This document shows, piece after piece, positions 21,216 to 45,798 of a stretch of DNA of 64,000 nt (position 1 is its first letter; every line of letters starts with the position of its first letter). Below the pieces are notes generated by a model, which saw nothing but the letters and a program-made list of their open reading frames with translations, searched no databases and was not told the DNA's origin. Location: positions 13,479,501 through 13,543,500 of the forward strand of contig AP031355.1 in NCBI GenBank assembly GCA_037833965.1, read 5' to 3'. A program made the position numbers and the translations under genes. The DNA is from Marchantia polymorpha subsp. ruderalis (lineage: Eukaryota > Streptophyta > Marchantiopsida > Marchantiales > Marchantiaceae).

Positions 21216-21230
21216 GTCTTCGGCGAAGAC
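21216..21230. repeat. Leader inverted repeat in copy A
   Basis: GTCTTCGGCGAAGAC, a 7-bp perfect inverted repeat around one base, about 215 bp before the start codon. The identical 15-mer is in the leaders of B, C and D. Confidence 0.8.
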
Positions 21231-24959: not shown

Positions 24960-25146
24960 TGTGATGCCTATTTTTTTTTTGTTTTTTTTCAAAAATCAAC
25001 AAAACTTAAACATATTTGTATAGAAGGTAGACATATGAGTTAGAAGGAGTAGATTTAGAGGAGTTATGAGAGAATTAGCTAGAATTTGCCTACGGCCGAA
25101 TCTTCGGATCTTTGACGCAGCCTTTTCTGAACAGTGCAAGATCTTA

Positions 25147-25161
25147 GTCTTCGGCGAAGAC
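25147..25161. repeat. Leader inverted repeat in copy B
   Basis: The same 15-mer GTCTTCGGCGAAGAC as in A, C and D, about 207 bp before the start codon. Confidence 0.8.
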
Positions 25162-25367
25162 ATCGAACTCAATTCGAATTGCGCAACGGGCCGGACAACG
25201 TTCGCACGCGTCAAGTATTCTACTGGACGCGGAGGAGGCAATGTTAGGGCATCAAGGGAAAAGCAAAGGCAGAAGCGAGTGAGCCGACATTGCGATACTG
25301 AACAAGAGCAAGCGCAGACGGAAGCAGATCGATCGACATCAATTCCACGACTACGTGAATTGGAGAC

Positions 25368-27931
25368 ATGGCGCCGCCCAAGAAGAGTGACAAGGTGCGG
25401 AAATTGGTTCCCTTGAAGTAACCATACGAGGAATTGCGACCCTTAAGGCGCAAGCTCAACGAATTGCGTCTTGATTTCCTCTTATGGAATTGGAATTGCA
25501 TCTCGGCAAGCATCTGCAAAGAAATTATGGACAAGAACAAGACCGAGGGCGAGGATTTCCGAGGTAACCCCATGCTGTGGACGATTGAGCATTGAGCGAA
25601 GGTGATGGGGCCGTGCGCAGGCAGCGACGTGGACCTCTTGTTTGAGAAGAGTAGCGTGGGACTCACACGCATAGAAGAATCCTCTTACGAGCCACTCTTC
25701 AGTTCTGGGAGGTCGGGGACAAATGGATGGAAGACCGCCGACTACCAAGACCCGAAGAGACGGACGATTGCACTGGGCATCATGCACATCTTGCGAACGC
25801 AGCGCACGACTTATGTCACGGCTTGGCAGGTGGGGTTCTTCGAACGAGTCTTGAAGGGACAGAGGGTACAATGGGCAAGAATCTTTTACGATCTTGTCTG
25901 AGTGAATGCGAGCTCGTGGTGGACGGGGCCGTTGGTCAATCATTTGACTCCTTTCCTTGTGAATTTCTATCGAGGCATGGGATTGCTTACAAGGGAAGAG
26001 GAGAAGCGATTTCCGAGGGAGCAAAAAATTCTTAACAGCTGAGTCAAGTGAAGGGACCAAAGATGATAACAATCGACCCCCAATTTCACCGTAGACGACA
26101 GCACGAGAACCCGTTCAGGTGGACGTTCTGCCGAATCGTGAGAAGCCAGAACGGCGATTGGCGAAGAGGGGGAAGGTGGTGACTGATGACGAGGAAGATT
26201 TGACACTAGTTGTCAGAAGAGCGGAAACGGAGGTAGAAGGAATCAGGCAATCGAGAGCTCGCGCGAGATCAAAGAGGAAGGCGAGTCGAAGGTTTGTGGT
26301 AACCGAAGTATCGGACAGCAGCGTGGAGAAGACAGTCGTCCCAATCGTAGACCCACCCAAAGTAGCAACTGGCGAGTCGACACAGCCTGTGGTGATTGAA
26401 GTACCTTCGGCGGTACTAGTCAAAGTTCCAGCAGACGTAACAGTGGAATCTTCGAAGGAGGGAACAGAGATGGTAAGCCCAAATTCTATTTCTTCGGAGC
26501 GGACACGGTTTGTGGGGAGTGAGGAAGTACCTCAATCGAAGACAAGTGAAGAGCTGGCGAAGGAGCTCACTCTTAGTGAAGAGATACTTGAGCAGGTTGT
26601 TGTGGAGGTTGGAGGAACGGTGGTAGATGCTACTGACATTACATTGCCGTCATCTCCTGTGGAAGATGTGAGACCCAAAGTAGAGAAGAAGACTTCGGAG
26701 GAGGAATCAAAGGGGGTAGACGTTACCTTCCCTGGTTTCTTACAAGATAGTGTGGTTCCAATATTGAAGTATTTGGATGGGAAGAGAGAGAAGTATGTTT
26801 TGTCCAAGGAGGTAGGATTCTATGTTGAGTTGGTGAGAAATAGGACTCAGATTAAGAGAGTAGTAGCGGTGAAGAGGAAGTGGGATTCCGCGACTGAGAT
26901 AGCACGGGAGTGAGCTGCAATCTTGTTAGCTGAGTGCGTAGCAGCGAAAGCGGCATTGAACATGCGAGAAGACCAGCTTCGTGAGAAGGAGATCGAGTGC
27001 AAAGTGCTGCAGTTGAATTTGGCGAAGGAATCCGGAAGATGTGCAGAGTTGGAAGAAACTTGTGGCGGGCTTCGTATCTCTAACAAGAATGGGCAGAAGA
27101 TGACAGTGGATTTGCTCGCAAGATTGGAGAAATCCAGAGAAGCGTATGATGCAGCAGTCCAACGATCGGAAAGGCTAATCAAAACTGCAGAGAGACAAGA
27201 GAAGAAGTATGTAGAAGAGCTTGTGAAAGTTGAAGCCCAAAGAGCCGAAGAAGTTCGTATCGTCGAAGAACTTTGGGGGAAGATTGCAGAGGCGAAGACA
27301 GCGGAAGAGGATCTTTGTAGCAAGGTTGTGGAGATTGCGGGTAAGTGTGATATGGAATTCCGACGAGTCTGTCGGAGGGAATCTAGAAGCATGAAGAGGA
27401 GTTGAAGAATTGGGCCAAGAAATTGACAGATTGCGAATCGGCCAAATCTTCGGAGAACGAATGTAGATTAAAGGTTGAATCGGAATGTCGACGGTTTTGG
27501 GAACAGTTAGGTAAGGCGGAGATGAGATCGCAAGAGTGGCGAAGGAGAATGGAGAAATCAGAGGAGGCCTACCGTCATTTGCGGGATGAGACAACCGATG
27601 AGTTGTGATTGCGTGTAGAGAAGTGCCTGCGCGGATTCGCGATGTGAGGATTGCAAACAGTGAAGTGGCTGAAGCTAGATTTGCTCGAGCGACGGTTGTG
27701 AGCACTGAGGCCAGCAAATCCGCAAGACAAAAGCAGATTGTAGAGATAGTTAAGACAGTTTTGGAGGGATTCGATGAGGCGCTCCTGAATGCAGAGTTAG
27801 AGATTTTTAACGTTTTGCGTAGACTAGGAGCAGAGATTAGTTCAGACGACGCCGTAACCGCTACATCGGATGGCACAGCCCCTGAGACCGATTCGCCTCA
27901 GGCAGTTGAGATTCTAGAGTTGCCATTGTGA
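25368..27931 (+). pseudogene. Decayed coiled-coil element protein (B)
   Basis: ATG at 25368 (MAPPKKSDKVRKLVP) with a stop at codon 18 (TAA at 25419). The frame then continues with LDFLLWNWNCISASICKEI, GNPMLWTIEH followed by TGA in place of Trp, and GSDVDLLFEKSSVGLTRIEE. A 264-codon stretch at 26119-26913 holds the basic segment (RRLAKRGKVVTDDEED), the acidic Ser/Thr-rich linker and FLQDSVVPILKYLDGKREKY. A coiled coil of about 160 residues follows at 26923-27405. The C-terminal part at 27402-27931 has two frame changes and ends SPQAVEILELPL. Several breaks are stops where relatives have Trp or Arg, as C-to-T decay would give. Function unknown. Confidence 0.75.
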
Positions 27932-27960
27932 ATAAAGAGACCCAAGGTTCTTTCCTTGGG
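27929..27960 (+). terminator. Stop-overlapping AATAAA and stem-loop (B)
   Basis: The stop codon TGA overlaps AATAAA (27931-27936). Five bases later comes a stem-loop with arms CCCAAGG (27941-27947) and CCTTGGG (27954-27960), loop TTCTTT, followed by GGGGCTTTT. The same arrangement is in D and C. It may be a 3'-end processing or RNA-stability signal; its role is inferred. Confidence 0.55.
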
Positions 27961-28472
27961 GGGCTTTTCAGTCATTTGGCTTGTCTTGACTGTGAACATG
28001 TATCCACTGTGTGACTGTGTGCTAGTGTGTGATCCAGACATCAAGCACAGTGCGCTCTTGTTTGTCGAAGTTACCGCATCGGCAGTTGTGAGTGTCCAAC
28101 TTGAATGTTCTGAGTAGCTGTGTGCTCCTTGGAATTTAAGCAAATTCGAGGCTCGGTATTCGGGTCAGTGAGTCGGGATGTATGCAATGATGGGAAGTTT
28201 TCTCCCTGAAATATGAGTGTGGGGTCGCAGGCGATTCCCACAGGCGTTGATTGGAAAAGTTTCGGGTTGTGAATGTGATTATGCGCTATTCTGCAGGTCT
28301 TCGGCCGCAGCTGGGTAGTGTCTTCTGGGAGTGGCATTGGCCTAAGAAGTAAAACTCCTTAATAGAATGCTAATCTGTGACAAATCGTGACTTTTGTGGT
28401 TGTTTCTGTCCTTGTGGGATCAGATCTGTACCATTATGCTCCATTTTGCTATTTGTCTGTCATTACAGGTTC

Positions 28473-30299
28473 CTTGTTTCAATTCTACTTGCTTCCATTC
28501 ATGTTTGCATTTTTTGCCAACATCATATAAAGTGTGTAGTTGATCATGTCCACCAATTGATTAGTATTAGATTCTTGAAAGTGATCACTTGCCTTGATGA
28601 AAAATTATATTAGCACAACTTGAATCACATTTATCACAAACTCTTCTCTTTTATCCAATATAAACTCTAAAAGATATTCAAGTCTAGTTATAATACTTTC
28701 ATGCATAATTGATACACCTCAATTTCATTAATAGATTTGAGAAAACTTGTGTCTCTAGCTGTTTGATAAAATAATTAGCATTTATGACAATTAATAGCAA
28801 GAAGTAAGATTCAAATGATCCATTTAATTTATTCTACATTTTTCAAAATGACCTAAAACAATTACTTAGATGAAAGTAAAAATTATGAACTTTTCAGCAA
28901 ATGTTTGACACATATTACAACTCGTGCAACTTTGTATACAATACTTTGTTTCAAATCAATTGTTGTGATACTTCTCTATAACTATTATGTCCGCTTAACT
29001 AATATCATGATCATAGCTTGAACTTTCTTCAACAACATCCATTTTTGTTAACAAAACTTAATGATTTTTGTTTCACTTAACTTTTGTTAGATTGTCATTA
29101 AAATAATCAAGTCAAATTTTATAATAAATTTTGATTTTATTGCATACACAATAAAAAAAGTTAAATATTTGTTAGATGTCTTCAAAGTTTGTTGATTTTA
29201 CTCAAAAAATATTTTATAATATATTGTTTCAATTTTGCTTTCTTTTGTTTATATTTTCATCTTTGATGACATCATACAAAATATGTAGTTGGTATTACTT
29301 GTTGACCTATAAAACTAGGTTTGTAGAAAATTATTATCCATACTTTGATATAAATATACTTAAACATAGCTTGAATCATATTTACCCCCAATTTTTCTAA
29401 TCTATATAAAATATATCCAAATTTTGTTTTGGAACATCATCAAAAATTAGTAAATTTGAAGAATCCAAATTCACACTACTTGTGAGATAATAAAAATCAT
29501 CATAACACATTTACGGAGTAAGATTCAAAGGATTCACAATTCTATTTCTATTGTTTTTCAAAAATAATTAATACAAAAACTTCTTTTAAAGAAGAAATGT
29601 TGTTGTACTTTTATGCAAAAACATAACTCATACCACAACTCTTGCAAAAATTTATACAATCTTTGAAAATATTTTTTCAATGATAGTCAGTGCCAAAGAG
29701 CTTGAATAGTTACATAACCTGCAAAGTTTTCTTTACATACCAAATTCTTGTGGAACTTCTTCATGAGTCCTAATGATACTTCTTTTCCAAAAATAATAAA
29801 AATTATCAACTTGCTTCTTAATGAAACAATTTTTTTGTAATTATTTATAAGTAACATCTCTTAACCAAATCATGATTAAGAGATGAATGATGTCTTAAGG
29901 AAATTTTCCTCCAAAGATAAATTTTAAATGTTTTTTATGTATTTTTTTCAACCGTCATAACATTGTATTCACTAATTAAACTTCACCTAGCAAAATAACA
30001 TTACCTGATTGATCTACATTTTGATCCTATGTTCAAAACATTGAAACATGATTATTATGTTCACTTGCATAAGAAATCAAATGATCATGATTTTTATCAT
30101 CTAATTGACTCAAAATGCATCCTTCATCAATATTTGATGTACGCATAGAATTGAAAAAAAAATTACTTAATATGATTTGCCAATATAAGAATCACTAACA
30201 TCTTTTTAAATTGATCAATCATTATCATTATTTCTTCATCTTTAAAGATAGCTTGAACTTTGTTTACTTCTTCACGTAGCTTTTTGTACAAAATGCATA
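28473..30299. other. AT-rich spacer, no gene seen
   Basis: Very AT-rich with stops in all frames. It contains the second copy of the dispersed repeat found at 17330-17429 (here 29025-29130). No coding sequence recognised. Confidence 0.5.
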
Positions 30300-30714
30300 C
30301 ACTGAGAATCACAAACAAGAATCAAACATTGATGTACGTGCTTCACTTCCACATGAGGCTACGTTCACAACCGAGATAAAAATTTCACCAAAGCAAAAAT
30401 GTTACGTCATGCCTTCATAGTTGAGCTCTCCATTATCTCTCCTCGCATGTGTACATAGGGTACTAAGCTGAAACATGCTCATCCTAGGATTAAGTATCTC
30501 AAACCCTAACTAGAGGCCAAGCATAATTACATTAAGACAAATCACGAGTAACAAGATGCAGACTAAAACTTACAAACTCTCTCTTAACCCAAATCTTGGA
30601 GTGGTTGGTTTCTATAATCCATATATACTTTCAGCCCAAAGTTCTAGAAAGTAAAACTAATTCATAGCTTTCCCTCTATGAACAAGGGTTCACTAGAACT
30701 AAGCCGTAGTTGAC
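30300..30714 (-). mobile_element. Copia 3' LTR (decayed)
   Basis: On the minus strand the LTR starts TGTTGTCAACTACGG at about 30714, just after the end of the Copia RNase H. It contains GTGAACGTAGCCTCATGTGG followed by GAAGTGAAGCACGTACATC, the signature near the end of Tork-type Copia LTRs. The far boundary is uncertain. Confidence 0.6.
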
Positions 30715-30754
30715 AACATGTAAGAGAAAAACTACATACATCATGTAATCTAAC

Positions 30755-31930
30755 TCATTGCTGCAGAATCTGTAAAGTTGCACGATGTCTTGAAAATTTA
30801 TCAAAAGAATTTAATTTGGTAAATTCATCAGCCGGGTTAAACACTCCATCAATTTTATTGAGCTTAAACACGTTCTCAAACACAGTCTGCCTAACAAAAT
30901 GGTACCTGATGTCAATGTGGTTAACCCTACTATTCATCACCTGATTCTTAGCAAGATGAAGCGCACTCTGACTATCACAATGAAGATTGATATCCTGCTG
31001 CGACAATCCCATCTCTGTGATAAGCTTGTTTAACCCGATTGCTTCTTTCATTGCCTCTACTACTGCAACATTTTCACCTTCTGTGAATGACAAAAATAAT
31101 GCACTTTTGAAGAGTTGATCTCCAACTTATGCAGCCATCGTTAAGAGTGAAAAACATACTTAGTCGTTGATTTTGTTTTTTTTCAATTTTTTTCCATGAT
31201 CACCATCGACATATTCCAAAAGTGACTTATCATTCATTGCTTCGGCATTTTGATTCAAACAATAAGCCATGTTGTGTATAATTTGTAAATATATAAGTAG
31301 TCACTTCACTACTTCTTCATGCACCTTTTCTAGATTAAACATGTATCTACTCACCTTAACTTCAGCAAAAGCTTTATCCTAGGATGTGCATACCATCAAA
31401 TACATGAGATTACACACTACACTCTCATAAGGGATAGAAGACATCAAGACTTTTTTGATCACATGCGTAAGATATTGTATTGCTGAAAGAATGAGTAACC
31501 AATGGAGTATTCACATGTTTGGCTTTCGCCATGTTGAACTTGACAAGCACCTACTCTACATACTTCTATTGAAATGACTAAATCTTTTCTACTTTCTGTT
31601 CTCGAAATACTTCCATGCCAATAATCTTCTTAATTGGACCTAGATCCTTCATGCTGAAAGTTGAGGTCAACTCAACCTTTAACTCATCAACTTCGGATCT
31701 TTAGGAGCTGCAATACGCATGTCATTGACATACAAGACAAGAATGATAAGCCCAAATGTCACATCAAAAACCTTCTTCAAGTAAACACAAAAATCATATA
31801 CACTCCGTAAGAATCCTTGTGCTTGCATGAAGTTGTTATAGGATTTGTTCCACTCACCATTCAAGAGTGAACTTCTAGCGTTGGAGAACACACAGTCCTC
31901 TTGTTGTGACGTCTTTTATTGGCAATAGTT
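30755..31930 (-). pseudogene. Decayed Copia pol: reverse transcriptase end and RNase H
   Basis: Minus strand. At 31891-31679 the RT palm reads FLRSVYDFCVYLKK ... LVLYVNDMRIAA, where Copia has YVDDM; the second catalytic Asp pair is Asn-Asp here. MKDLGPIKKIIGMEVF and later connection motifs follow with stops (about 31660-31100). The RNase H at 31093-30755 is one intact 112-codon frame with EAMKEAIGLNKLI, LHCDSQSALHLAKN, and RVNHIDIRYHFVR, all standard Copia RNase H motifs. The 5' half of the element (gag, protease, integrase) is absent. Confidence 0.85.
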
Positions 31931-32499
31931 CTCTAGTGATCCGTTTTGTACAGGACAGATGGGGAAAAAAATATAATAAAAAAAATATTTGACATCAAAG
32001 ATTGTTCTCTAAATGAGTATGGGTATGAACAACCTTGAGTTTCATCTAGCCAGCCAACTACTATTTACAAGAGGCGCGTAAAAGATATATAGATGCAGAT
32101 CTTCATAATAAATCTCAGCTTCTATACATGCTAATGAATTAATATCGCCAGAATAATGCTTTTAGTATTCAAAATAGCATTATGATTCATGTGGAATACA
32201 CAATTGATTTGTCACGCTTCAAGTTCGATGACTTTGAGGCATACATGGCTGCAGCTTACAGTGTCAGAGATCACTTGATGGAAAGCTTAAATGATACGCA
32301 ACATTTTTTCAAGCAATTTCATTCAAAGAGGATGTACTACTTGTTCATAAAACTTTTAATGGATTGTTCGCTTTTGATAGTGCGTACAACCTTGGTATAA
32401 AGTATCAAAACTCAAAAGCTTTGAAACAACTTGGAGCTGCAGGTTAAACAAGAATGTGATGCTAATCTTAAAAATGGTGCTCTGGAACGTCTTGCTTCA
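31931..32499. other. Spacer, unidentified
   Basis: A 72-codon plus-strand frame at 32182-32400 has normal-looking composition but matches no family I recognise. Nothing else is supported. Confidence 0.35.
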
Positions 32500-32865
32500 T
32501 GATTTCTGGGCACGGACTAGCGAAACGACAAGAGAAGCGGAGGCGTCATGTGATGAGCCGAGCGGCTTGACCAAAACCCTTGAGCAATGGCATGGTAGAT
32601 GATTAGAGTGACCAAAGCGGCCTTCAATCCGACCTCTGATGTGACGAACGTATAGCCGGAGGTTGCAACAGAGGGCGAACGGACCCTACTCCTCTAGATC
32701 GGCTCGCGACAGCGATCTGCGCAATGATTGGAGTAACGACCTGAGCGGTGATCAAGCGGCAAATATCAAACGATCAAACATGGCTAATGCCATCACCTCA
32801 AGTGGTTGGGCCGAACGCGATTGCTGTCAACAGTGCGAACGTAGTTGGTCGGATCAAGCGCGATT
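32500..32865. repeat. GC-rich imperfect repeat block 1
   Basis: Contains GCGACAGCGATCTGCGCAAT, GGAGTAACGACCTGAGC and CATGGC segments that recur in changed form at 33640-33780. It is much richer in G and C than its surroundings. No coding function recognised. It abuts solo LTR S2. Confidence 0.45.
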
Positions 32866-33617
32866 TGCAACTTTTGAGCTGACTCTCACTCAAGTTTATC
32901 TTAGATGGCTTTGCGCTAGCTCATTCCGGTTTTAGAAAACTAGGATTACTCCTCATACTCATGTCTCAAACACAATCTCACACTTTTTTTTCCATTCATC
33001 ACGCAAATTCATCCACATATCGACACTCCAAGATGCTAAAAAGATCACTCTTTCATTGATGAAACAAATCTCTACACATGAACTCTTCAAACTTGCTTGA
33101 AAGATTATTCCATATAACCTACTTGAAAATTAATCATAATAAAAAATGGTAATTCTTATCTAAGTAACTTTTATAAAGATGAAGCATAATAAGTTTGACT
33201 ATTTCCCAATTTGTAACAACATGACATTGGCTTCCTAAATCTTCTAGATGTTTCCTAATCTTTGGATTGATGTGGTGACGTGTCATTTGAGGCTTTCCAA
33301 CTTCTAGAACCTTCACTAAGCAACTTTAGACTTAGTCTAACTAATCAAGTTCCCATCACTTAGTCAAACCAATCAAAAATAATCATGTAGTCAAAAGTAT
33401 TTTGTCTTGGACTTTTATAAGAGACAAGATAGAAGTGCACATCCAAATCTTCTAAAAATTACTTATGAATCCGCCAAGTATACAAATTATAGGTAAACTT
33501 AGTTATAACTAGCGTGATTCAATCATAATTACTTATATTATTTATACCTAAGCTAACCATGATCAACTCATTGGCTACTTATAATCCTACTTCACACATA
33601 CAAAAACTGGTCTTACA
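32866..33617 (-). mobile_element. Solo-LTR-like insertion S2
   Basis: On the minus strand it begins TGTAAGACCAGTTTTTGTATG and ends GTCAGCTCAAAAGTTGCA. It is related to S1 and S3 throughout. Flanks are gatt and ggtt (3 of 4). No internal retrotransposon genes. Confidence 0.65.
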
Positions 33618-34084
33618 GGTTAACGTGACAACTCCAGTTGGACTGCGACAGCGGCTTGTGTAACAATCGGAGCAACGACGTGAGCCGTTATGAAACGACG
33701 AGTACCGAATGAAGAGCATCGAACGACCAAACAGGGCAAATTTCATCATCTTTTCCACGTGGTTAAGTCGAGCACGGTCGTGATCGCGGTCGGTGGAACG
33801 AACGGAGTCGCCCGGATCAACTGCATTTGGCAAGGCAACCAGAGTCAGCCGGGCCAAACGCTATAGACAACACAACCGCGGTCGGCGAGACAACTGCAAT
33901 TGGCGAGGCTATCACGGTGAACGGCCGCTCGATGGCAACGGCGACAACAACAGTCCATAGTCGACGGTGACGGTCGACAGCCAAAAATGACTGTGACATG
34001 CAAAGGTGACGATGAGTTGCTGACACAGTCAGTCGTGAACGACGATGACGATTGCAGGCGACAATAATCTATAGTTGCGAGTGC
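33618..34084. repeat. GAC/GGTGACGGTC-rich imperfect repeat block 2
   Basis: The first part is related to block 1. The second part (33880-34080) is dominated by GACGGTGACGGTCGAC-like and GGCGACAA-like units. Similar units recur at 34850-35010 and 37440-37690. No recognisable protein on either strand. Confidence 0.5.
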
Positions 34085-34846
34085 TGCAACCTCCAGGCTG
34101 ACTCTCACTCAGGTTTACCTCAGATGGCTTTTCGGTAGCTCATCAGGAATACTAGAATTACTCTTCATACTCATAGCCCAAACACCCTCTCACACAATCT
34201 CTCAAGTTACCACTCCAACTCACACACACATCGTCACTCCAAGGTACTAAAAATTTGTGACTCTTTCATATATGAAACAAGTCTCTACATATGAATTCTA
34301 CAAACTTGCTTCCGAGTCTCTTCCCTACCTCTTTATATATACTACTTGAGATTTTACCATAGTAACAAATGGTAATTTCTATCTAACTTACTTTTACAAA
34401 AATAAACCATAGTAAGATTGACTAGTTATCAATATGTGGCAACATGACATTGGCCTCCTAAACATACTAGATGTTTATTAATCCCTAGATTGAGGTGGCG
34501 ACATGTCATTTGTGCCTTTCCAACTTCTAGAACTTCCACTTTCCACTAAGTCAACATTAGACTTAGTCTAACCAATGGAGTACTCCTTACTTTAGTCAAA
34601 CCAATCAACTAAACATGAAGTCCAAAAGTCTTTTCTCTTGGAATCTAGACTTTTGTACAAGACAAAATAGAAGTGCTCACTCAAATCTTCTAGAACTTCT
34701 CTAGTTATTCCACCAAGTATAGACATTATAGCTAAACTAGCTAGACTTAGTCATAACTAGCTAGATTTAGTAATGACTATCCTAACCATGATTAACTCCT
34801 TGGCTAATTCTAGTTCTAGTTCACACATACAACATCAGGTCTTACA
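34085..34846 (-). mobile_element. Solo-LTR-like insertion S3
   Basis: On the minus strand it begins TGTAAGACCTGATGTTGTATG and ends GTCAGCCTGGAGGTTGCA. Flanks are gtgc on both sides (34081-34084 and 34847-34850). If the terminal base is assigned to the target, the duplication is a perfect gtgct. It is the cleanest copy of the S family, inserted into GAC-rich repeat DNA. Confidence 0.75.
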
Positions 34847-35359: not shown

Positions 35360-36077
35360 AGATGTGTGTCTTTCAATGAACCTATATCATTGAATGAGGA
35401 GGAGACTTCTCAGGAATCTCCGTATTGACAAGGGAAAATCTTTGCTAACTGATATGATTGTAAGAGAGTTTGATTATTTTGTGAGTAATGATCAAGATGA
35501 TTATTGGTACAATTTATGTATTGTAGAGTGAAGCAAAACGATATCAGACACTTTTTCAAACAAGAATATATGATAAATTGATTGAGCTAATGAAGATTAA
35601 CTGTAAACTCTCATGATTGAGCTAATCAAGACTAACGATAAACTCAATCTAGCTGATGCGTTGACCAAAGTTATTACTCTGGGGAGTTTTAAACAACACT
35701 ACGCTACCATGCAAATTATGCGTGGTGAGCACAGGCAGAATTTGCTACCATAGTATTTTCAATTATCTCTTTATATTTTTAATCTATCATGTGATGACTA
35801 TGACTTAGTTCTAGTTAAGTCTTGTGTAAAGGAGTAAATTGTATTAGATTTCTTTCTAGAAATTATTATATAGGTTACAAGATTTTTGTTTCCTCTATGA
35901 TAGCAAGTTTTTAGTTATCTCTTTATGTTATTACTCTATCTTGTTATGGCTACGATTTACTTTTAGTTAACTCTCGTGTAAAGACTGGACCTTGTGTTAG
36001 GTTTCTCTTTAGAACTTGTCGCGAAATAATAATGTAAATCATACCACTGTTTCCTTAACGTTAGTTTAGGAGGAGAT
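35360..36077 (+). pseudogene. Copia copy 1: decayed pol tail and 3' untranslated region
   Basis: At 35362-35400 the frame reads RCVSFNEPISLNEEE, like the SRDVxFNE segment that follows Copia integrase. RT is deleted. At 35608-35751 the frame reads IELIKTNDKLNLADALTKVITLGSFKQHYATMQI, the C-terminal end of Copia RNase H. A 3' untranslated stretch and a purine tract (aggaggaga, ending 36076) lead to the LTR at 36078. The RNase H end already contains two copies of the ~35-bp ATTGAGCTA...GATAAACTC unit that is expanded in copy 2. Confidence 0.7.
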
Positions 36078-36215
36078 TGTTGAGGTTAATTCCAGTCAAG
36101 TAGTAACCTCAAGTAGTAACCTCAAGTCCTAGCTATTTATAGCAAGGACTTGAGGTTACTACTTGACTGGCTATTTATATCATCCTAGCTATTTATAGCT
36201 AGGATGATCGCCTTC
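36078..36215 (+). mobile_element. Truncated Copia LTR (copy 1)
   Basis: Starts TGTTGAGGTTAATTCC directly after a polypurine tract, like TGTTAAGGTTAACTCC at 46548. It is truncated after the TCCTAGCTATTTATAGC promoter-like hairpin. The following sequence (from about 36220) is not LTR. Confidence 0.65.
36092..36205. repeat. Two inverted repeats around TATTTATA in the LTR
   Basis: Arm 36145-36170 (AGGACTTGAGG...TTGACTGG) is the exact reverse complement of 36092-36130 apart from a 13-bp internal duplication (AAGTAGTAACCTC) in the left arm. A second perfect 24-bp palindrome lies at 36182-36205 (11-bp arms, 2-base centre), ATCCTAGCTAT and its complement, with a TATTTATA core. The equivalent in the 46548 LTR is TCCTAGCTTTAAATAGCTAGGA. 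Confidence 0.8.
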
Positions 36216-36224
36216 TCAACTTTC

Positions 36225-36596
36225 TCATGTAGGAAATCGTCGGGCTTCGGATTCAAACACAAAAGAGCCAAAGTCACGATTTAAGCTCCAAATTATCTTG
36301 AAGAGAGTTCCGGAATTGACCTCCTTAGTTCCACAGGATGAGGAAACTCTGATCGTGTTATGAAAGGAACTGTTGACAATCCCATGTCTCTTCCAGAGGA
36401 AATCATTTGCGAGGGTTTTAAATGTGGGGAAGACCTTGGAACCTGCATCCTTGTTGGATTTCTTCGCTTGAATGATTCGCTCGCTTTTGCTTGGAAGCTG
36501 TAGTACTAGACATAAGCTCTCAAGGCTCACGTAAATTTTCTGATGTCGTAGAGGACAACACCTTGCAACCTCTTTATCATCTGACCAATCAGCCAT
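36225..36596 (-). CDS. Unidentified 123-codon open frame
   Basis: A minus-strand frame beginning MADWSDDKEVARCC and containing SGTLFKIIWSLNRDFGSFVF. I do not recognise it, and it has no signal peptide, membrane helix or clear motif. A neighbouring minus-strand frame at 36813-36589 and a plus-strand frame at 36491-36694 overlap the same area, so the coding strand is uncertain. It could be an exon or captured fragment of a host gene lying between Copia remnants. Low confidence that it is translated. Confidence 0.25.
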   Translation of the reverse strand: MADWSDDKEVARCCPLRHQKIYVSLESLCLVLQLPSKSERIIQAKKSNKDAGSKVFPTFKTLANDFLWKRHGIVNSSFHNTIRVSSSCGTKEVNSGTLFKIIWSLNRDFGSFVFESEARRFPT

Positions 36597-37439
36597 GGCA
36601 ATTTACTAGCGATGGAAGAAGGTCAAACGTGATCCACTTAGAGAGCTCGGTGCCTGAGCAGGTTTTAGTATACATTGATGATTTAGGGACCTGAAATTCA
36701 GAGTTCATCTGAAAAATACGCAGGGCTGGTACTTGTTCCAAACCTAATGAAATGTTGAGAACTGATAGCAGTTGATGTGCAATACGGTTAGTATCAGCTA
36801 CAGAAAAGATCATCGGGATCTAAAATGCGAGGTCCTCGCTCAATTGAAGCTTAGGCTGGAGTTGGAGCTGAAGAACAACGACCTGTCGTAGACATTGCTT
36901 AGAAATTATGGTATTTCTTTGATGAATTCCACTAAGGATGCTTAGGTTGCAAGCACCAAATAGGAATTCTGATCTCACATATTGCGAGTTGAGTGGTTTT
37001 GCGACCGAAGTCAAGACGCATGATGGAGTGGAAAAAATGGAGAGAAAATCGGCACAGGGATTTTTCCGATTGGCCCGCAAGGCATGCACGTTGCGGCCAA
37101 GAGGCAGGATGGGCAGTACCATCTTTCCCACTTTTCAAACAGCAAGTTGCAAGGCCCCGACCACGTGGCAGAACAGGGCCGAGCGGTAGGGTCATCTAAG
37201 TAGTCGAAAGGGGCCAAGCGGCATGCATCCCTCCTCCTCCACACAGTCTGCGCGCAAGAATGACGACGTGTGACGGATCTTTTCCATTCTTGCACGGCAA
37301 GGATGGACAGCGTGTCTGTGTGATAGGATGACTCTCCAAATTCAGAGTGATTGAGTGGAAACATGATGGATGATTTGATCCTTCTCCTACACCATGCTAT
37401 GTAGGGCAACAATGGTGCAAGGAGCAACTACGTTGTGTG
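36597..37439. other. Spacer, unidentified, moderately GC-rich
   Basis: Open frames occur on both strands at 36820-37427, but none has recognisable features. The frames overlap each other, as expected in GC-rich non-coding DNA. Confidence 0.35.
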
Positions 37440-37690
37440 AGGTAACCATGGTCAACATGATGAACGCAGTTGATGTTATGTGGTCGACAATGAGGGCCGA
37501 TAATCAATGTTGACGGTGACTGTGACTGTGACGGTCGATAATTGTCATGACAGTTAACGATGACGGTGACGGTCGCAAGCAATGATAACGGACGGTCGAG
37601 GAAGCAATTAGTCGCGGACAACAACAAAGAACAGTCACAGGCGACAATCACGGATAGTCACGGTTGCAAGTGCAAGTGACACAGTGGCAG
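37440..37690. repeat. GAC-rich imperfect repeat block 4
   Basis: GTGACTGTGACTGTGACGGTC and GACGGTGACGGTCGCAAGC-like units, related to the block at 33880-34080. It ends next to Copia copy 2. Confidence 0.5.
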
Positions 37691-37889
37691 GCTGATTAGT
37701 GCTTTGGCAAAAGTAGTGTTATAGGTCAAGAGCGTTATATTATTATAGTCAAGAGCATGTAAATAATTAAGCTAGTCATTGAGCGTGTAACGTTTTTGTC
37801 ATTATAGATGTGTAATTCATTGATATCACATCATTGAAAGTAGGGGAGAGTTCTCAAGGTGTCCATATCGACAAGTGAAAATTTTCAGA

Positions 37890-38165
37890 GTTCATCGTCA
37901 AGATTGACTAGCTCAATCATGAAAGTTACTCTCAATATGAATTAGCTCAAGATCCAAAGTTTATCGTGAGTTTTGACTAGCTCAATCATGAAAGTTACTC
38001 TCAATATAAATTAGCTCAATTTCCAAAGTTTATCGTCAGTTTTGACAAGTTCAATCATCAAATTTTAAAGTCAAAATTGACTAGCTCAATCATCAAAGTT
38101 TATCGTCAAGATTGACTAGCTCAATCACTAGAGTTTACTGTCAATCTTGACTAGCTCAATCATTT
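37890..38165 (-). repeat. 35-bp tandem repeat, inverted relative to the array at 38935-39285
   Basis: About seven degenerate units of TTTATCGTCAAGATTGACTA followed by GCTCAATCATCAAAG. This is the reverse complement of the unit in the right-hand array. Both derive from the Copia RNase H sequence encoding IELIKTNDKLN. Confidence 0.75.
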
Positions 38166-38261
38166 AACCATTTGATCAGATCATTGAAAGAGTGGTAGAG
38201 TTTTCAGAATGTCTATTGACAAGTGAAAATTTTTGCTCACGAATATAGGTGTGTGGAATTT

Positions 38262-38866
38262 GATCATTATGTGATTAATGATCAAGATGAGCACCGGTAT
38301 ATAGCTATGGGAAAGCTTGATCATTGTGTGATCAATGATGAAGATCAACACCGGTATATAACTATGGGGAAGTTTGATCATTGTGTGATTAATGATCAAG
38401 ATGAACATCGATATATAGCTATGATAAAGTTTGATCATTATGTCATTAATGATCAAGATGAGCATCGGTATATAGCTATGAAAAAGTTTGATCATTGTGT
38501 GATTAATGATCAAGATGAACACCGATATATAGCTATGAGAAAGTTTGGTCATTATGTCATTAATGATCAAGATGAGCATCGGTATATAGCTATGAAAAAG
38601 TTTGATCATTGTGTGATTAATGATCAAGATGAGCACCGGTATATAGCTATGGAAAAGTTTGATCATTGTGTGATTAATGATCAAGATGAGCACCTATATA
38701 TAGCTATGAGAAAGTTTGATCGTTGTGTCATTAATGATAAAGATGAGCACCGGATATAGCTATGAAAAAGTTTGATCGTTGTGTCATTAATGATCAAGAT
38801 GAGCACCGGTATATAGCTATGTGAAAGTTTGATCATTATGTCATTAATGATCAGGATGAGCACGGT
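38262..38866 (+). repeat. 57-bp tandem repeat, about 10.6 units
   Basis: Unit: GATCATTGTGTGATTAATGA, then TCAAGATGAGCACCGGTATA, then TAGCTATGAAAAAGTTT. Ten full units (one of 56 bp) plus a partial one. As 57 is divisible by 3, the plus strand encodes a 19-residue repeat (DHCVINDQDEHRYIAMKKF), open for 178 codons at 38223-38759. The minus strand is also open for 170 codons at 38693-38181. The unit resembles a single-copy Copia stretch at 35460-35520 (EFDYFVSNDQDDYWYNL). Confidence 0.9.
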
Positions 38867-38934
38867 ACAAATTATGTATAGTAGAGTGAAGCACAACAAT
38901 AACATATATTTTTTCAGACAAGAATGTATAATAC

Positions 38935-39285
38935 AATGATTAAGCTAGTCAAGATAGATGGTAGATTTTAGTGATTGAACTAATCAATCTTGACGATAAA
39001 CTCTGATGATTGAGCTAGTCAATCTTGACGATAAACTTTGGTAATTGAGCTAGTCAAAATTGATGATTAATTCTAGTGATTAAGCTAGTCAAGATTGACA
39101 GTAAAATCTATTGATTAAGCTAGTACATCTTGATAGTAAATTCTAGTGAATGAGCTAATCAAGATTGATGATAAATTCGAATGATTAAGCTAGAACATCT
39201 TGACAGTAAATTCTAGTGATTGAGCTTGTCTATCTTGATGGTAAACTCTTATGATTGAGCTAGTCAAGATTGATGATAAACTTAA
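38935..39285 (+). repeat. 35-bp tandem repeat, direct orientation
   Basis: About ten degenerate units of GATTGAGCTAGTCAAGATTG followed by ACGATAAACTCTAGT, running directly into the single-copy Copia RNase H end (DDKLNLTDSL). Confidence 0.8.
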
Positions 39286-39660
39286 TCTAACCGATTCGTT
39301 ACTCAAAGTTATTACTTTAGAGTGTTTGAGGCGACATTGTGATACTATGCAGGTTGAGCATGGATAGCACAAGTATAGGTTGCTAACATAGTATCTTCAG
39401 TTTTCTCTTTATATAATTACTCTATTATGTAATGGCTATGGCTTAGTTCTAGTTAACTGTTGTTTAAAGAGGAATCTTGTATTAGGTTTCTTTCTGAAAC
39501 TTCTCGCGGAGTAATTACATAGGTTACTATGGTGACTAGTTTTTTTGTTTTTCTTTAAAAATCAACAAAACTAAAAGATAATTGTGTAGAAGTAATCGTA
39601 TGAGTTAGGATGAGTAGCTTTTGAGGAGTTATGATATGATTAGTTAGAATTTGACTACGG

Positions 39661-39728
39661 CCGAAGATCTTCGGATCTTCGGCGCAACTTTTTCTGGACA
39701 TTGCAAGAGCTGCGTCTTCGGCGAAGAC
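39661..39728. repeat. Leader palindromes in copy C
   Basis: CCGAAGATCTTCGG (39661-39674, perfect 14-bp palindrome) and GTCTTCGGCGAAGAC (39714-39728, 7-bp arms) lie 216-283 bp before the start codon. Confidence 0.8.
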
Positions 39729-42226
39729 ATAGGAATCAAATTGAAATCGCACAACGGGCCAGATGACGTTCGCACGCGTCGGATGTTCTACTGGGCGCGG
39801 GAAGAGGCAATGTTAGGGCTTCAAGGGTAAGGGCATTACAAGGAGCCTTCGCGCCGACATTGCAATATCAAGCAAGAACGAACGAGAGTGAGAGAGAGCA
39901 AAATCGACCGACCTTGCTAGCAGCGAAGACGCAAATTGGAGACATGGCGCCCAAGAAGAGTGATAAGGTGTCGAAATTGGTTCCCTTGAAGGTGCCCTAT
40001 GAAGAATTGCGACCCTTCAGACGCGAGCTGAGCAAATTGCGGCTTGACTTTCTCTTGTGGAATTTAAATTGCGTCTCGGCAAGTATCTGTAAGGAGATAA
40101 TGGATAAGAACACGACCGAGGGCGTGGAGCTTCGAGGTAATCCCATGTTGTGAACAATTGAGCATTGGGCGAAGGTGATGGGACCGTGGGCAGGTAGCGA
40201 CGAAGATCTTTTGTTTGAGAAGAGTAGCTTGGGACTTGCGCACATTGAAGAATTCTCTTACCGACCACTCTTCAGTTCCGGGAGGCAGGGGACGAACGGG
40301 TGAAAGACAACGGATTACTAGATCCGAAGAGAAGGGCGATTGCTTTGGGAATCATGCATATCTTGCGACCGGCGCGCACGACGTATGTGACGGCCTGGCA
40401 AGTAGGGTTCTTCGAGCGAGACCTGAAGGGACAAAAAGTACATTGGACAAGGATCTTTTACGATCTTGTCTAGGTGAATGAGGGCTCCCTGTGGACGGGA
40501 CGGTTTATCAATCATATCACTCCTTTTCTGGTGAATTTCTACCAAGGCATGGGGTTGCTTACGAGGGAGAAGGAGAAACGATTTCCGAGGGAGTGGGAAA
40601 TCTTGACAGCCGAGTCCAGTGAAGGGATCGAAGACGATACCCGTCAACCCTCAATCCCACCATAGACAACAGCCCGAGGATCAGTTCAGGTGGACGTTGT
40701 GCAGAGACGGGAGAAGCCAGAGAGACGATTGGCGAAGAGAAGGAAAGTAGTGAGTGATGACGAGGGAGATTTGGCACTTGAAGTGAGAAGGACTGAAACG
40801 GAAGTAGAAGTAATTAGGCAGTCAAAAACTCGAGCGAGACCAAAGAAGAGGGCGAATTGAGGGTTGGTGGCAGATGAAGTGTCGGATAGCAGCGTAGAAA
40901 AGACAGTTGCCCCGATTGTGAGTACATCCGAAGTCGCAGTGGGCGAATCGACACAGGCTGTGGAGATGGAAGGACCTTCAGGGGTGTTAATCGAAGTTCC
41001 AGCGGATGCACCGGCAGAACCTTTGAAGGAAGGAATGAAGATAGTAAGTCCGAATTCTCTGTCTTCGGAGCGGACATGGTCTACGGGGAGTGAAGAAATA
41101 CCTCATCCGAAGATGAGCGAGGAATTGGTAAAGGAGCTTACACTGAGCGACGAAATACTTGAGCAGGTTGTTGCCCAGGTTGAAGGGACGGTGGAAGATG
41201 CCGCAGACATTGCATTGCCGTCATCTCCTGTGGAAGATGTGAGACCCGAAGGAGAGACAAAGACATTAAAGGAAGAACCGAAGGAGTTAGTTGTTTCCTT
41301 CCCCAACTTCTTGCAGGATAGTGTGGTTCCATTACTAAAGTATTTGGACATGAAGAGAGAGAAGTATGATGTGTCAAAGGAGGCAGGAATTATATGTGCA
41401 GTTAGTAAGGAATAGGACGAAGCTCAAGAGGGTAGTAGCAGAAAATTCCGCGACTGAATTGGCACGGGAGTGAGCGGCAAACTTGGCAACTGAGTGCGCG
41501 GCAGTGAAGGCGACATTGCAGGAGCGAGAAGCCCAGCTTCGGCAGAAGGAGATTGAGTGCGAAGTACTGTAGTTGAACCTGGCGAAGGAATCCGTAAGAT
41601 GTGTAGAGTTAGAAGAGACATATGGAGGACTTTGTATCTCCAATGAGAATGTACAAAAAGTGACAGTGGACTTGATCGCGAGGTTCGAGAAATCCAGGGA
41701 AGCGTACAATGAGGCAGTTAAACGATCGGAGTGATTGATCGTAACTGCGGAAAAACGCAAAAGGAATCATGTTGAAGAAGTTGCTAAGTTGGAAGCCCGA
41801 AGAGCCGAAGAAGTTTGTATCGCCGAAGAACTTAGGGGCAAAATCGCAGAGGCGAAGAAGGCAGAGGAAGATCTTCGTAGCAAGATTTTGGAGATTGAGG
41901 GTAAGTGCGAGGCGGAATTCCGACGTGCGGAGGAGCTATCAGCAAGTCTGACGGAGGGAGTCCGGAAGCATGAGGAGGAGTTAGCGAAGTGGGCCAAGAA
42001 ATTGGCAGATTGTGAGTCGGCCAGGACTTCGGAGGTCGAATGTAAATTGAAGGTTGAATTGGAATGTCGACGGTTGCAGGAGGAGTTAGGTGTGGGGCCT
42101 ACTTTTTTGTTTTTCTTTAAAAATTAATAAAAAAACATAAATATATGTGTGTAGAAGATAGTTATATAAGCTGGAAAGAGTATATTTATAGGAGTTATGA
42201 CAGGATTAGTTAGAATTAGTCTACGC

Positions 42227-42302
42227 CCGAAGATCTTCGGATCTTTGCGTCTTCGGCGCAGCCTTTTTGCGACGCACGAAGAGCTACGTCTTCGGCGAAG
42301 AC
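42227..42302. repeat. Leader palindromes in copy D
   Basis: CCGAAGATCTTCGG (42227-42240) and GTCTTCGGCGAAGAC (42288-42302), 215-290 bp before the start codon. Confidence 0.8.
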
Positions 42303-42516
42303 ATCAGAATCAATTTCAAATCACGCAACGGGCCGGACGAGGTTCGCACGCGTCGGGAGTTCTACGAGGCACATGAGACAGCAATGTTACAGCATCAAGG
42401 GTAAAGGCAGAAAGAGGAGACTGCGCGCCGACATTGCGATATCGAGCAAGAACAATCGAGAGCAAGAGGAATTGCAATCGAGCCAACCCGCGATCTGCGA
42501 AGCGCAAATTGAACAC

Positions 42517-42837
42517 ATGGCGCCCAAGAAGAGTGAGAAGGTGAGGAAATTGGTTCCCTTGAAGGTGCCGTATGAGGAATGTAGACCCTTCAGACACGAG
42601 TTGAGGGAGCTGCGGTTAGAATTTCTTTTGTGGAATTGGAATTGCGTATCAGCGAGTATCTGGAAGGAGGTTATGGACAAGAGCGCAACCGAAGGCGAGG
42701 AGCTCCGCGGTAATCCCATGTTGTGGACCGTTGAGCATTGGACGAAAGTCATGGGACCGTGCGCAGGAAGCGACGGAGACCTTCTGTTTGACAAGAAAAG
42801 CGTAAGACTTACGCGCGTCGAGGAATTCTCTTACTGA
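42517..42837 (+). CDS. Coiled-coil element protein D, N-terminal part
   Basis: ATG at 42517 is the start shared with C (MAPKKSEKVRKLVPLKVPYE). This 106-codon frame ends at TGA 42835, within a region that continues in relatives. It carries the family's most conserved segment: LEFLLWNWNCVSASIWKEV, then EGEELRGNPMLWTVEHWTKV, then GPCAGSDGDLLFDKKSVRLTR. The Trp-rich pattern suggests a small folded domain. I do not recognise it as RT, integrase, gag or transposase. A short frame-broken stretch (42838-43026) separates it from the long frame. Confidence 0.6.
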   Translation: MAPKKSEKVRKLVPLKVPYEECRPFRHELRELRLEFLLWNWNCVSASIWKEVMDKSATEGEELRGNPMLWTVEHWTKVMGPCAGSDGDLLFDKKSVRLTRVEEFSY

Positions 42838-43026
42838 GCTCTCCTCGAGACGGGATGACAAGGAACGAATGGATGGAAGACGGTCGATTATAAGGATCCG
42901 AAGAGAAGGGCGATCTTACGGCCAGCGCGCACGACTTATGTGACGGCCTGGCAGGTGGGATTCTTCGAGCGCATTTTGAAGTGACAGCGCGTACATTGGG
43001 CAAGGATCTTTTACGATATTGTCTGG

Positions 43027-44898
43027 GTGAATGCGTCTGGTCGATGGACGGGATTGATGACCAACCATCTTATCGCCTTTCTGGTGCATTTCTATCGAGG
43101 AATGGGATTGCTTACGAGGGAGGAGGAAAAGCAATTTCCAAGGGAGCGGGAGAGCTTTACAGTGGAGTCCTGTGAAGGGACCGAAGACGAGAACCCATCT
43201 CCTGCAATTCCGACACACACTACTGCTCGAGGACCAGTGCAGGTGGACGTGGTTCCAAGGCAGGAGCAACCAGAGAGGCGAGTGGCAAAGAAGAGGAAGG
43301 TCGTAAGCGATGATGAGGAGGAATTGGCCCACACAGTAAGAAGGGTGGATATGGAAGTGAGTGGAGCCAGACAGCACAGAGCTCGCGCAAGACCAAAGAA
43401 GAGGGCGAAACAGAGGATGGTGACAGTTCAGGTGTCAGATAGTAGTGTGGAGAAGACGGTGGCACCAATTGTGAACACATCCGAAGTCGCAAATAGCGAG
43501 GTAATGCGATCTGTGGAGTTAGGGGCACCTTCGGAGGCGTCAATTGAAGATCCGGCAGATACACCGGCAGAACCTTTGAACAAGGGAACGGAATTGATAA
43601 GTCCGATTTCTTTGTCTTCGGAGCGGACACGGTCTGCGCAAGGCGAAGGGACACCCCAGATGAAGATGAACGAGGACTTGGAGAAGGAGTTTACTTTGAG
43701 CGAGGAGATTCTGGAACAGGTTTTCGCAAGAGTAGGAGAAACAGTGGTGGAAGCTGAGGGCACTACACTGCCGACGTCTCCTGTGGAAGAGGTGAGACCC
43801 GAAGAAGGACAAAAGACTTCGGGCGGAGAAGTGAAGACATTGGAATTTACATTTCCTGAATTCTTGCAGGATAGTGTGGTACCATTATTGAAATACTTGA
43901 ACGGGAAGAGAAAGAAGTATGCTGTATTGAAGGAGCCGGGATTCTATGTTCAGATGATCAGGAATAGAACGAAGCTCAAGAGAGCAGTTGCAGTAAAGAA
44001 GGAGTGGGATTCCGCAACTACATTGGCACGGGAGCGAGCTGCAACCTTGTCAGCCGAGTGCGCAGCAATGAAGGCGACATTGAGGGAGCGAGAAGCCCAG
44101 CTTCAGGAGAAGGAAACCGAGTGTGAAGTGCTGCAGCTAAATCTAGAGAAGGAATCGGGACGCTGTGCAGAATTGGAAGAGACCTCCGGAGGACTTCGTA
44201 CCTCTAATGAGAATGCCCAGAAGGTAACAGTGGATTTGATGTCGAGGGTAGAGAAATCCAGGGAAGCTTACGATGCAGCAGTAAAAAGGGCGGAGCGATT
44301 GATCACGACAGCGGAGAAGCAAGAGAAGAAGCATATGGAAGACCTTGCCGCATTGGAAGTCCGAAGAGCCGAAGAAGCTCGCATCGCCGAAGAACTTCGG
44401 GGCAAGCTCGCAGGTACGAAGACGGCGGAGGAAGATCTTCGTAGGCAAATTTCAGAGATTGGGTCGAAGTGTGAAACTGAATTCCAACGTGCGGAGAAAC
44501 TATCAGCAAGTCTGTCGGCAGGAAATCAGAAGCATGAAGACGAGTTGAAGGATTGGGCCAAGAAATTGGCAGAGTACGAGTCGGCCAAGTCTTCGGAGGT
44601 CGAATGTAGATTAAAGGTTGAATCTGATTGTCGACGGTTACGGGATCAGTTAGGGGAAATCGGAGATGAGATCGGAAGAGTCACAGAGAAGAATGCAAAA
44701 GGCAGAGGATGCCTATCGTCGATTGCGGGAGGATTCAACCGACGTGTTGAGATTGCGGTTAGAGAAGTGCCTGAACGGGTTCGCGATGTGGAAATTGGAT
44801 TCGGTGAAGTGGTTGAAATTGGATCTGCTCGAGCGACGGCTGATGAGCGCGAAGTCCAGCAGATCCGCAGGACACAAACAGACTGTAGAGTTAGTTAA
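43027..44898 (+). CDS. Coiled-coil element protein D, main part (623 codons)
   Basis: The longest open frame of the family. Residues 5-30 complete the N-terminal domain (GRWTGLMTNHLIAFLVHFYR). Residues 83-96 (ERRVAKKRKVVSDD) and 118-131 (basic, PKKRAKQR) look like nuclear localisation signals. Residues 140-270 are an acidic Ser/Thr/Glu linker. Residues 278-299 hold the conserved EFLQDSVVPLLKYLNGKRKK. Residues about 330-560 are a continuous coiled coil rich in Glu, Lys, Ala and Arg. A one-base shift near 44660-44690 sends this frame off the true C terminus, which continues at 44666-45076; the last ~70 residues of this frame are therefore out of register. A nuclear, filament- or partner-binding protein is plausible; the function is unknown. 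Confidence 0.6.
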   Translation: MNASGRWTGLMTNHLIAFLVHFYRGMGLLTREEEKQFPRERESFTVESCEGTEDENPSPAIPTHTTARGPVQVDVVPRQEQPERRVAKKRKVVSDDEEELAHTVRRVDMEVSGARQHRARARPKKRAKQRMVTVQVSDSSVEKTVAPIVNTSEVANSEVMRSVELGAPSEASIEDPADTPAEPLNKGTELISPISLSSERTRSAQGEGTPQMKMNEDLEKEFTLSEEILEQVFARVGETVVEAEGTTLPTSPVEEVRPEEGQKTSGGEVKTLEFTFPEFLQDSVVPLLKYLNGKRKKYAVLKEPGFYVQMIRNRTKLKRAVAVKKEWDSATTLARERAATLSAECAAMKATLREREAQLQEKETECEVLQLNLEKESGRCAELEETSGGLRTSNENAQKVTVDLMSRVEKSREAYDAAVKRAERLITTAEKQEKKHMEDLAALEVRRAEEARIAEELRGKLAGTKTAEEDLRRQISEIGSKCETEFQRAEKLSASLSAGNQKHEDELKDWAKKLAEYESAKSSEVECRLKVESDCRRLRDQLGEIGDEIGRVTEKNAKGRGCLSSIAGGFNRRVEIAVREVPERVRDVEIGFGEVVEIGSARATADEREVQQIRRTQTDCRVS

Positions 44899-45076
44899 TT
44901 CATTTTCAGAGGAATTGAATGAGGCGCGCCAGAATGTAGAAGTAGAGATTGTAAACGTGTTGCGTAGATTAGGAGTAGAGAGTAGTTCAGACGATGCTGT
45001 AACCGTTACATCGGACGGCACAGCACTTGAGGCCGATTCGCCTCAGGCGGTTGATATCTCAGAGTTGTCATTGTGA
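44666..45076 (+). CDS. Coiled-coil element protein D, C-terminal part in shifted frame
   Basis: 136 codons in another frame from the main part: end of coiled coil, CLNGFAMWKLDSVKWLKLDL (conserved in every copy), a second short helix (VELVNSFSEELNEARQN), VLRRLGVESSSDD, and end SPQAVDISELSL. Joined to the main part by one indel, the protein would be about 830 residues including the N-terminal part. Confidence 0.6.
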   Translation: MRSEESQRRMQKAEDAYRRLREDSTDVLRLRLEKCLNGFAMWKLDSVKWLKLDLLERRLMSAKSSRSAGHKQTVELVNSFSEELNEARQNVEVEIVNVLRRLGVESSSDDAVTVTSDGTALEADSPQAVDISELSL

Positions 45077-45104
45077 ATAAAGAGGTCCAAGGCTCTCTCC
45101 TTGG
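45074..45104 (+). terminator. Stop-overlapping AATAAA and stem-loop (D)
   Basis: TGA 45074-45076 overlaps AATAAA 45076-45081. Arms CCAAGG (45087-45092) and CCTTGG (45099-45104), loop CTCTCT, followed by GGGGCTTTT. Compared with B, the outer stem pair is lost while the inner pairs are kept. Confidence 0.55.
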
Positions 45105-45798
45105 GGGGCTTTTCTATCAATTGACTTGTCTCAACTGTCATTTTGTCTTCGTTGTGTGTCCCTATACTAGTGTGTGATCCAGACATCGAGCACGGCGCGC
45201 TCCTGTTTGTCGAAGTTACCGCAATAGGAGTTGTGAATATTCGGCCTGGATGTCTTGGGTAGCCTGGGGTTACCACGGGATTTAAGCAAGTTTGGGTCTG
45301 TGTATACGGGTCAGTGTATTGAGATGTATGCAGTGCTAGGAAGTTTTAAAACTGAAGTGTTTGTCTGTTATTACATTAGGCAAGGCGGACATGAGATCGT
45401 AGGAGTCGCAAAGGAGAATGGAGAAGGCAGAGGAAGCATATCGTCAGCTACGGAACAAGTCAACCGACGAATTGAAGTTGCGTTTGGAGAAGTGTCCGAA
45501 CGGATTTGCGATGTGGGGATTGCAAACGGTGAAGTGGTTGAAGCTAGATTCGCTCGAGCCGTGGTTGATGAGCGCTAAGACCAGCGGATCCGCAGGACAC
45601 AAACAGATTGTAGAGTTAGATAACACATTTTCAGAGGGATTGAATGAGGAGCGCCAAAATGTAAAAGTAGAGATTGTAAACGTGTTGCGTAGGCTAGGAG
45701 TAGATGTAAGTTCAGATGACACCGTAACCGCTACATCGGACGGCACAGCCCCTGAGTCCGATTCGCCTCAAGCGGTTGATATTCCAGAGTTGCCATTG

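Follow-up and report, generated by a model that had tools for sequence, protein, structure and literature searches.

The 64,000-nucleotide stretch of the Marchantia polymorpha subsp. ruderalis genome analyzed here (hereafter the window; assembly GCA_037833965.1, contig AP031355.1, positions 13,479,501 to 13,543,500 of the forward strand) contains a family of gene-bearing repeat units, among them the three designated B, C, and D. These three units are very probably solo long terminal repeats (LTRs) of a plant Ty3/gypsy retrotransposon, and the LTR carries a gene for a coiled-coil protein that selection seems to have maintained during the spread of the element. Elsewhere in the genome, the same kind of unit is joined at its end to a primer site and at its start to a polypurine tract, and the primer site matches a tRNA-like sequence; this identifies the units as LTRs and the copies in the window as solo ones. 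The source genome was searched as 241 Mb in nine contigs, of which the one holding the window is referred to as C6.

Junctions between the units and a retrotransposon interior

Searches with the two ends of the internal region listed 40 places per end, and 12 of each were fetched, giving 24 loci. At all 12 of the 5′ junctions fetched, the TTACA of the unit leads through a leader into the primer site, which is exact in six and has changed bases in six, and 11 of the 12 fetched 3′ junctions pass from the polypurine tract into a TGTGG unit start, with both D-like and A/B/C-like starts represented. The exception among the 3′ junctions, L066, has an inverted arrangement. At this place (L038/L066, C1:3831560-3835067) the post-LTR leader runs into the element’s own 3′ internal end in reverse complement, an arrangement that we read as a putative product of inversion or self-integration. 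The primer site is complementary to a tRNA-like 3′ end extended by CCA. Exact copies of this end stand at 29 places, compared with none for the backward control, and these places we take, from the plant tRNA-Asp sequence, to be genes for tRNA-Asp. Among the listed places, a gene match lies upstream and in the same orientation at 13 of the 40 5′-internal matches, ten of them at a distance of 2.7–2.85 kb, and a gene match lies 0.26–0.36 kb downstream at 6 of the 40 3′-internal matches; the corresponding wrong-side controls gave 0/40 and 0/40.

The order of the parts can be followed in one copy, L061 (C1:4253900-4260700, minus strand), where the LTR tail is succeeded by the primer site (17 bases past the LTR end), gag, reverse transcriptase, RNase H, integrase, the purine tract GGGGAGAGGAG, and the start of the next LTR. 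This gag, reverse transcriptase, RNase H, and integrase order is that of Ty3/gypsy elements, and Pfam assigned Retrotrans_gag, zf-CCHC, RVT_1, RT_RNaseH, Integrase_H2C2, and rve to the internal region of this single copy. No Pfam match to an aspartic protease was obtained in the piece scanned, L061:3145-3549, and no chromodomain was seen by eye after the integrase. The LTR measures ~3.5 kb and the internal region ~6 kb, and the two LTRs of one element are 92.8% identical over 2321 columns. An earlier note, made from the letters of the window alone, had offered giant solo LTRs containing a gene as one of two readings of the units. That reading holds, since units of this kind border the primer site and polypurine tract of a Ty3/gypsy element at numerous genomic positions; the paired copies flanking gag-pol that the note proposed to look for were found, with a tRNA primer site just inside the 5′ LTR.

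All three window units lie on the plus strand. Unit B (24960..28467, 3508 bp, TGTGATG...TTACA), which is homologous to the LTRs joined to primer site and polypurine tract, is flanked by the 5-bp target duplication GGTTC at 24955..24959 and 28468..28472. Unit C (39528..46337) starts with TATGGTG, a TGTG start with one change, ends with TTACA at 46337, and is flanked by GTTAC at 39523..39527 and 46338..46342; it is split by unit D, so that its own parts are 39528-42090 and 45376/45381-46337. Unit D (42091..45375), nested in C, starts with TGTGGGG, ends with TTACA, and is flanked by TTAGG at 42086..42090 and 45376..45380; it bears a deletion near its 3′ end, as its relatives align up to window position 45347 and then continue. 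Perfect 5-bp target duplications thus flank all three units, and the ends and duplications given for them in the earlier note were reproduced at base level. The accompanying statement that the units lack direct terminal repeats stands for B, for which BLAST against the window found none; C and D were not taken singly, and the repeat list of the window comprises repeats of at least 100 bases only. In the same BLAST comparison, B matched pieces of C and D at 74–85% and the damaged copy A at 70%. None of eight gag-to-integrase pieces of L061 matched the window, in which no internal domain was found, in agreement with the claim that the units carry no reverse transcriptase or integrase.

A protein search of the genome with the N-terminal stretch of the unit scored 150 matches out of 7008 candidates. 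Target duplications, which the earlier note had wished to see in other copies, were recorded in an 18-row listing: ten rows are perfect (the D of the window included) and two match at four of five positions. Of the remaining six, C1:1814459 is a 5′ LTR followed by a primer site, C1:4831639 has a small end deletion with AAGCA on both sides by eye, and three have an end that is missing or was mispaired by the script; the sixth is taken up below. Thirty 3′-tail loci were read past the unit end. L047 and L050 run from TTACA through TAGATAAATTTTTCTTT into TGGCGCCGCTGCCGGGGA, L038 shows the leader followed by an internal end that is rearranged, L054 loses its end, and the flanks of the others look unrelated by eye. 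A purine tract stands directly before the unit in 2 of 30 N-terminal loci (L011 and L021).

The gene carried by the LTR

A sense open reading frame (ORF) of ~850 codons, counted by position, is contained entirely within the LTR. It runs from MAPKKSEKVRKL to a C-terminal ELPL and fills most of the LTR, which accounts for the LTR length of 3.5 kb. In C1:4831639 the ATG is at LTR position 423, and the stop falls on the conserved TGAATAAA ~0.55 kb before the LTR end. In 44 of 49 rows, or ~40 of 43 when repeated places are taken once, an AATAAA either overlaps the stop or comes just after it. In B, the gene occupies 25368..27931 of the plus strand (ATG at 25368, stop at 27929-27931) and is broken by stops and frameshifts; the AATAAA overlapping its stop codon (TGAATAAA) is at 27931..27936, plus strand. 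An inverted repeat of the CCCAAGG...CCTTGGG kind stands just after it (27936-27965), with TCCAAGG...CCTTGGG in D (45081-45110), and may fold into a hairpin close to the site of polyadenylation. D retains a 623-codon open stretch (43027..44898, plus strand), which a stop divides from the N-terminal piece at 42373-42837, and a C-terminal piece at 44666-45076 lies in another frame. The gene is broken in all window copies inspected.

The earlier description of a single gene with nuclear localization signal (NLS)-like stretches and a coiled coil is borne out in its parts, namely the ATG at 25368 in B, the basic stretches KKRK and RARPKKRAK in D (NLS-like by eye), and a heptad signal; in the window copies that gene is a broken one. 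Along the 750-residue open frame of one long copy, heptad periodicity is strong in 2 of 11 overlapping segments, at residues 541-652 and 601-712, being reached in 2 of 300 and 1 of 300 shuffles, respectively, and the last segments of the test are low in proline plus glycine (2.7%). Sequence searches of Pfam and the PDB identified no relative of the protein.

Purifying selection on the gene between subfamilies is shown by comparing the copies codon by codon. For the N half, the comparison of 27 D-like with 5 divergent copies, out of 33 rows, gives difference rates at codon positions 1/2/3 of 0.189/0.153/0.406; for the C half, 30 D-like and 6 divergent copies out of 41 rows give 0.173/0.143/0.296. 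The intermediates (1 and 5, respectively) are omitted from these groups, and transversions alone display the same third-position excess. Among the D-like copies the corresponding values are 0.073/0.058/0.122 (N half) and 0.073/0.056/0.116 (C half). The nonsynonymous to synonymous rate ratio (dN/dS; NG86), calculated over pairs that are not independent of one another, is 0.18 in the N half (143 pairs) and 0.24–0.28 in the C half (107 pairs) for the two most divergent bins; it is ~0.3 in the middle bins and still ~0.3 for close N-half pairs.

Related genes and their distribution among contigs

N-domains related to that of the LTR gene at 38–45% amino acid identity occur in the window (units E and F) and in the flanks of fetched loci. 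We read them as three apparent further divergent groups, represented by L006 with E, L003 with F, and L088. Unit E (2390..5722, minus strand), an LTR of one divergent family, contains an N-domain piece at 4902-5147 and has flanks, TGTCA and TGTCC, that match at four of five positions by eye. Unit F (17430..21019, minus strand), an LTR from a different divergent family, carries a related gene whose N-domain is at 20272-20778 (~40% amino acid identity); its upper limit of 21019 is a guess, as its 5′ end beside A is ill-defined. Both E and F have LTR-like ends. Numerous matches were returned when pieces of these groups served as queries. In one further group, 78 of 150 listed matches are stop-free over the 200 residues searched (counted by eye); these are 79–100% identical, with open frames of up to 866 codons.

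Unit A (21020..24716, plus strand) is a degraded LTR of the B/C/D family whose tail is missing and which contains an unrelated insert at ~23120-23993. This insert is another repeat, with an inverted partial copy at window 32855-32983 and similar sequence in the flanks of L043 and L058. Tandem arrays of 57 bp and 35 bp lie beside unit C (38202-38867 and 38891-39345), and window 11031-13013 holds an ORF for a 660-codon leucine-rich repeat protein (Pfam LRR families and LRRNT_2).

The gene is found on all nine contigs, and the small contig C1 (5.59 Mb, 2.3% of bases) holds 39 of the 150 listed gene matches. Its share among listed matches is 12/40 for the tail (by eye), 22/40 for the 5′-internal end, and 30/40 for the 3′-internal end, and all seven 5′–3′ internal pairs are located there. 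The comparison of 39/150 gene matches with 30/40 3′-internal matches gives a Fisher p of 2e-8 and a second Fisher test for C1 gives 0.04; these counts are of listed matches and the internal queries come from a C1 copy, so the share of C1 may be partly technical. Should C1 be a sex chromosome that does not recombine, as its small size would suggest, the concentration of paired internal regions on it would follow from fewer LTR–LTR recombinations there. In Blasia, another liverwort, the sex-determining region is reported to be rich in LTR retrotransposons (PMC13182070).

A separate integrase search across all contigs returned 150 listed matches, of which 136 (by eye, all those past the first 14 rows) are 79–81% identical to the query and stop-free, most of them in a 946-codon open frame. 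They seem to constitute a related, apparently young family. Some of its members are tandemly spaced at 10.65 and 11.2 kb, which suggests LTR-sharing arrays and no more than hints at long LTRs. Among the matches listed, no LTR gene match was seen by eye within 5 kb of the copies with intact pol.

Alternatives, known elements, and possible meaning

Several observations weigh against the interpretation of the units as solo LTRs with a selected gene. C1:448850, flanked by CTGCC and GTACC, has no target duplication and is the sole clear failure among the 18 rows. A duplication on both flanks was seen for no full element; in the one that was followed, GTACC stands at the 5′ end and a further insertion has truncated the 3′ LTR. 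Among the copies for which both ends are available, none has a fully open gene, the longest open stretch being 750 residues, and the closest C-half pairs (27 pairs, <5% divergence) have a dN/dS of 0.62, a value to be expected if copies decay after insertion. In the copies inspected, the non-coding LTR head is 72–81% and the tail 80–95% identical; conservation of the tail equals or exceeds that of the gene, which is thus not simply the most conserved part of the LTR. No promoter was found in the LTR, and a TATA-like candidate was dropped, as inspection by eye showed the stretch to vary from one subfamily to another. The N-domain gave poor AlphaFold models (mean predicted local distance difference test scores of 50.8 and 52.6), which leave the function unassigned, and a Foldseek search of the first model against the PDB returned nothing at E≤0.001. 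The genes of the L006, L003, and L088 groups are candidates for placement in an LTR, E and F having LTR-like ends.

The alternative that survives best is a variant of the same interpretation, in which the gene would sit in a very long R region and the genomic RNA would serve as its message, with the gene as the first ORF, in place of an mRNA of the gene alone. The sense orientation and the AATAAA at the stop fit an R region holding the gene; on sequence alone this arrangement is indistinguishable from a separate mRNA, and we consider it a serious candidate at somewhat less than an even chance. The chance capture of a cellular gene by one LTR, in which it would hitch-hike without use to the element, is improbable. 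It would agree with the fact that no function is assigned and many copies are broken, but it is at odds with the third-position excess, with the dN/dS of 0.18–0.28 between subfamilies, and with the related genes in further divergent groups at 38–45% identity; a host gene that was under selection and was later captured several times would also be compatible with the data.

The other reading offered by the earlier note, a large non-autonomous retroelement class (LARD-like) that borrows its enzymes, is very improbable. Most copies read do stand alone, many with target duplications, but no terminal direct repeats were found in B and the unit is coding, which speaks against membership among LARD or TRIM elements. 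The same kind of unit flanks gag-pol on both sides, coding partners exist, and the primer-site and purine-tract junctions contradict the reading. A DNA transposon with a transposase-like protein, to which the short TGT...ACA inverted ends and the single protein per unit might point, is dismissed, as the protein has no Pfam transposase match and the junctions join the unit to a Ty3/gypsy internal region.

Among known systems, the retrotransposon with the gene-bearing LTR most resembles, in features rather than on a tree, the plant non-chromovirus Ty3/gypsy elements Athila, Tat, Ogre, and Retand, with which it shares the gag, reverse transcriptase, RNase H, and integrase order, a tRNA primer site, a 5-bp duplication, and, in L061, the absence of a chromodomain seen by eye after the integrase. 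Athila uses a tRNA-Asp primer. According to one review, extra ORFs are known in this group; they are internal, and most are placed between pol and the 3′ LTR, whereas the ORF of the Marchantia element is inside the LTR (PMC7264820). In the same review, Retand ORF4, Grande gene23, and PvRetro13 ORF2 are antisense, internal extra ORFs, the gene23 protein is nuclear, and PvRetro13 ORF2 has an SMC domain (PMC7264820). They share with the LTR protein, which has NLS-like stretches and a coiled coil, the lack of a clear database match; the LTR gene differs in being sense and in the LTR, and its protein gave no match to pfam04195 (29 alignment members, E up to 1; one N-domain, E up to 5). The rice elements Retrosat2, RIRE3, and RIRE8 are comparable in LTRs of ~3 kb or more (>3.2 kb in Retrosat2), an element length of >12 kb, and an extra ORF, ORF0, with a mean Ka of 0.26 and Ks of 1.65; in the available portion of the text, ORF0 is upstream of gag-pol and is not placed in the LTR (PMC3485330).

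Outside plants, MMTV (mouse mammary tumour virus) sag and lentiviral nef are accessory genes within or overlapping a retroviral LTR, and they differ in belonging to vertebrate viruses and, as far as we are aware, in encoding unrelated proteins. We know of no solo-LTR gene family of this kind. No plant LTR-borne gene is described in the literature searched, which consisted of titles and abstract openings, with bioRxiv and most subscription journals outside its scope, and the word ‘solo’ is absent from the accessible text of a Marchantiopsida genome paper (PMC9985172). The earlier note had called the units unusual; it is fair to say that this applies to the gene inside the LTR and not to solo LTRs as such.

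Integration makes a 5-bp duplication. We propose that the element integrates as LTR–gag-pol–LTR and that LTR–LTR recombination, mainly on recombining chromosomes, would then remove gag-pol and leave one gene-bearing LTR. It is conceivable, at a little below even probability, that the LTR is a complete gene, with a promoter in its first 0.4 kb, the ORF, and a poly(A) signal; solo LTRs would then remain able to express the protein, and read-through of the AATAAA signal would yield the full-length genomic RNA. More tentatively, the protein, with its new N-domain, basic NLS-like stretches, and coiled coil, may be a nuclear accessory factor, which would help replication, integration, or escape from silencing; this nuclear role is the weakest step of the proposal.

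A selected gene located in the LTR passes to every solo LTR, so that gag-pol can be lost without loss of the gene. A broader idea, which we regard as rather unlikely, is that a whole Ty3/gypsy superfamily moved an accessory gene into its LTR and that hundreds of solo-LTR genes could go on providing a trans-acting protein once gag-pol has been lost. If this were true, every insertion would bring two gene copies, each LTR–LTR recombination would leave a self-contained gene with promoter, ORF, and poly(A) signal, and many solo-LTR genes would still be open in the less decayed group. With gene copies on every contig and paired internal regions on one small contig, the role of recombination in solo-LTR formation could be measured within one genome, and the retrotransposon would have gained a means of endowing its host with trans-acting genes that last.

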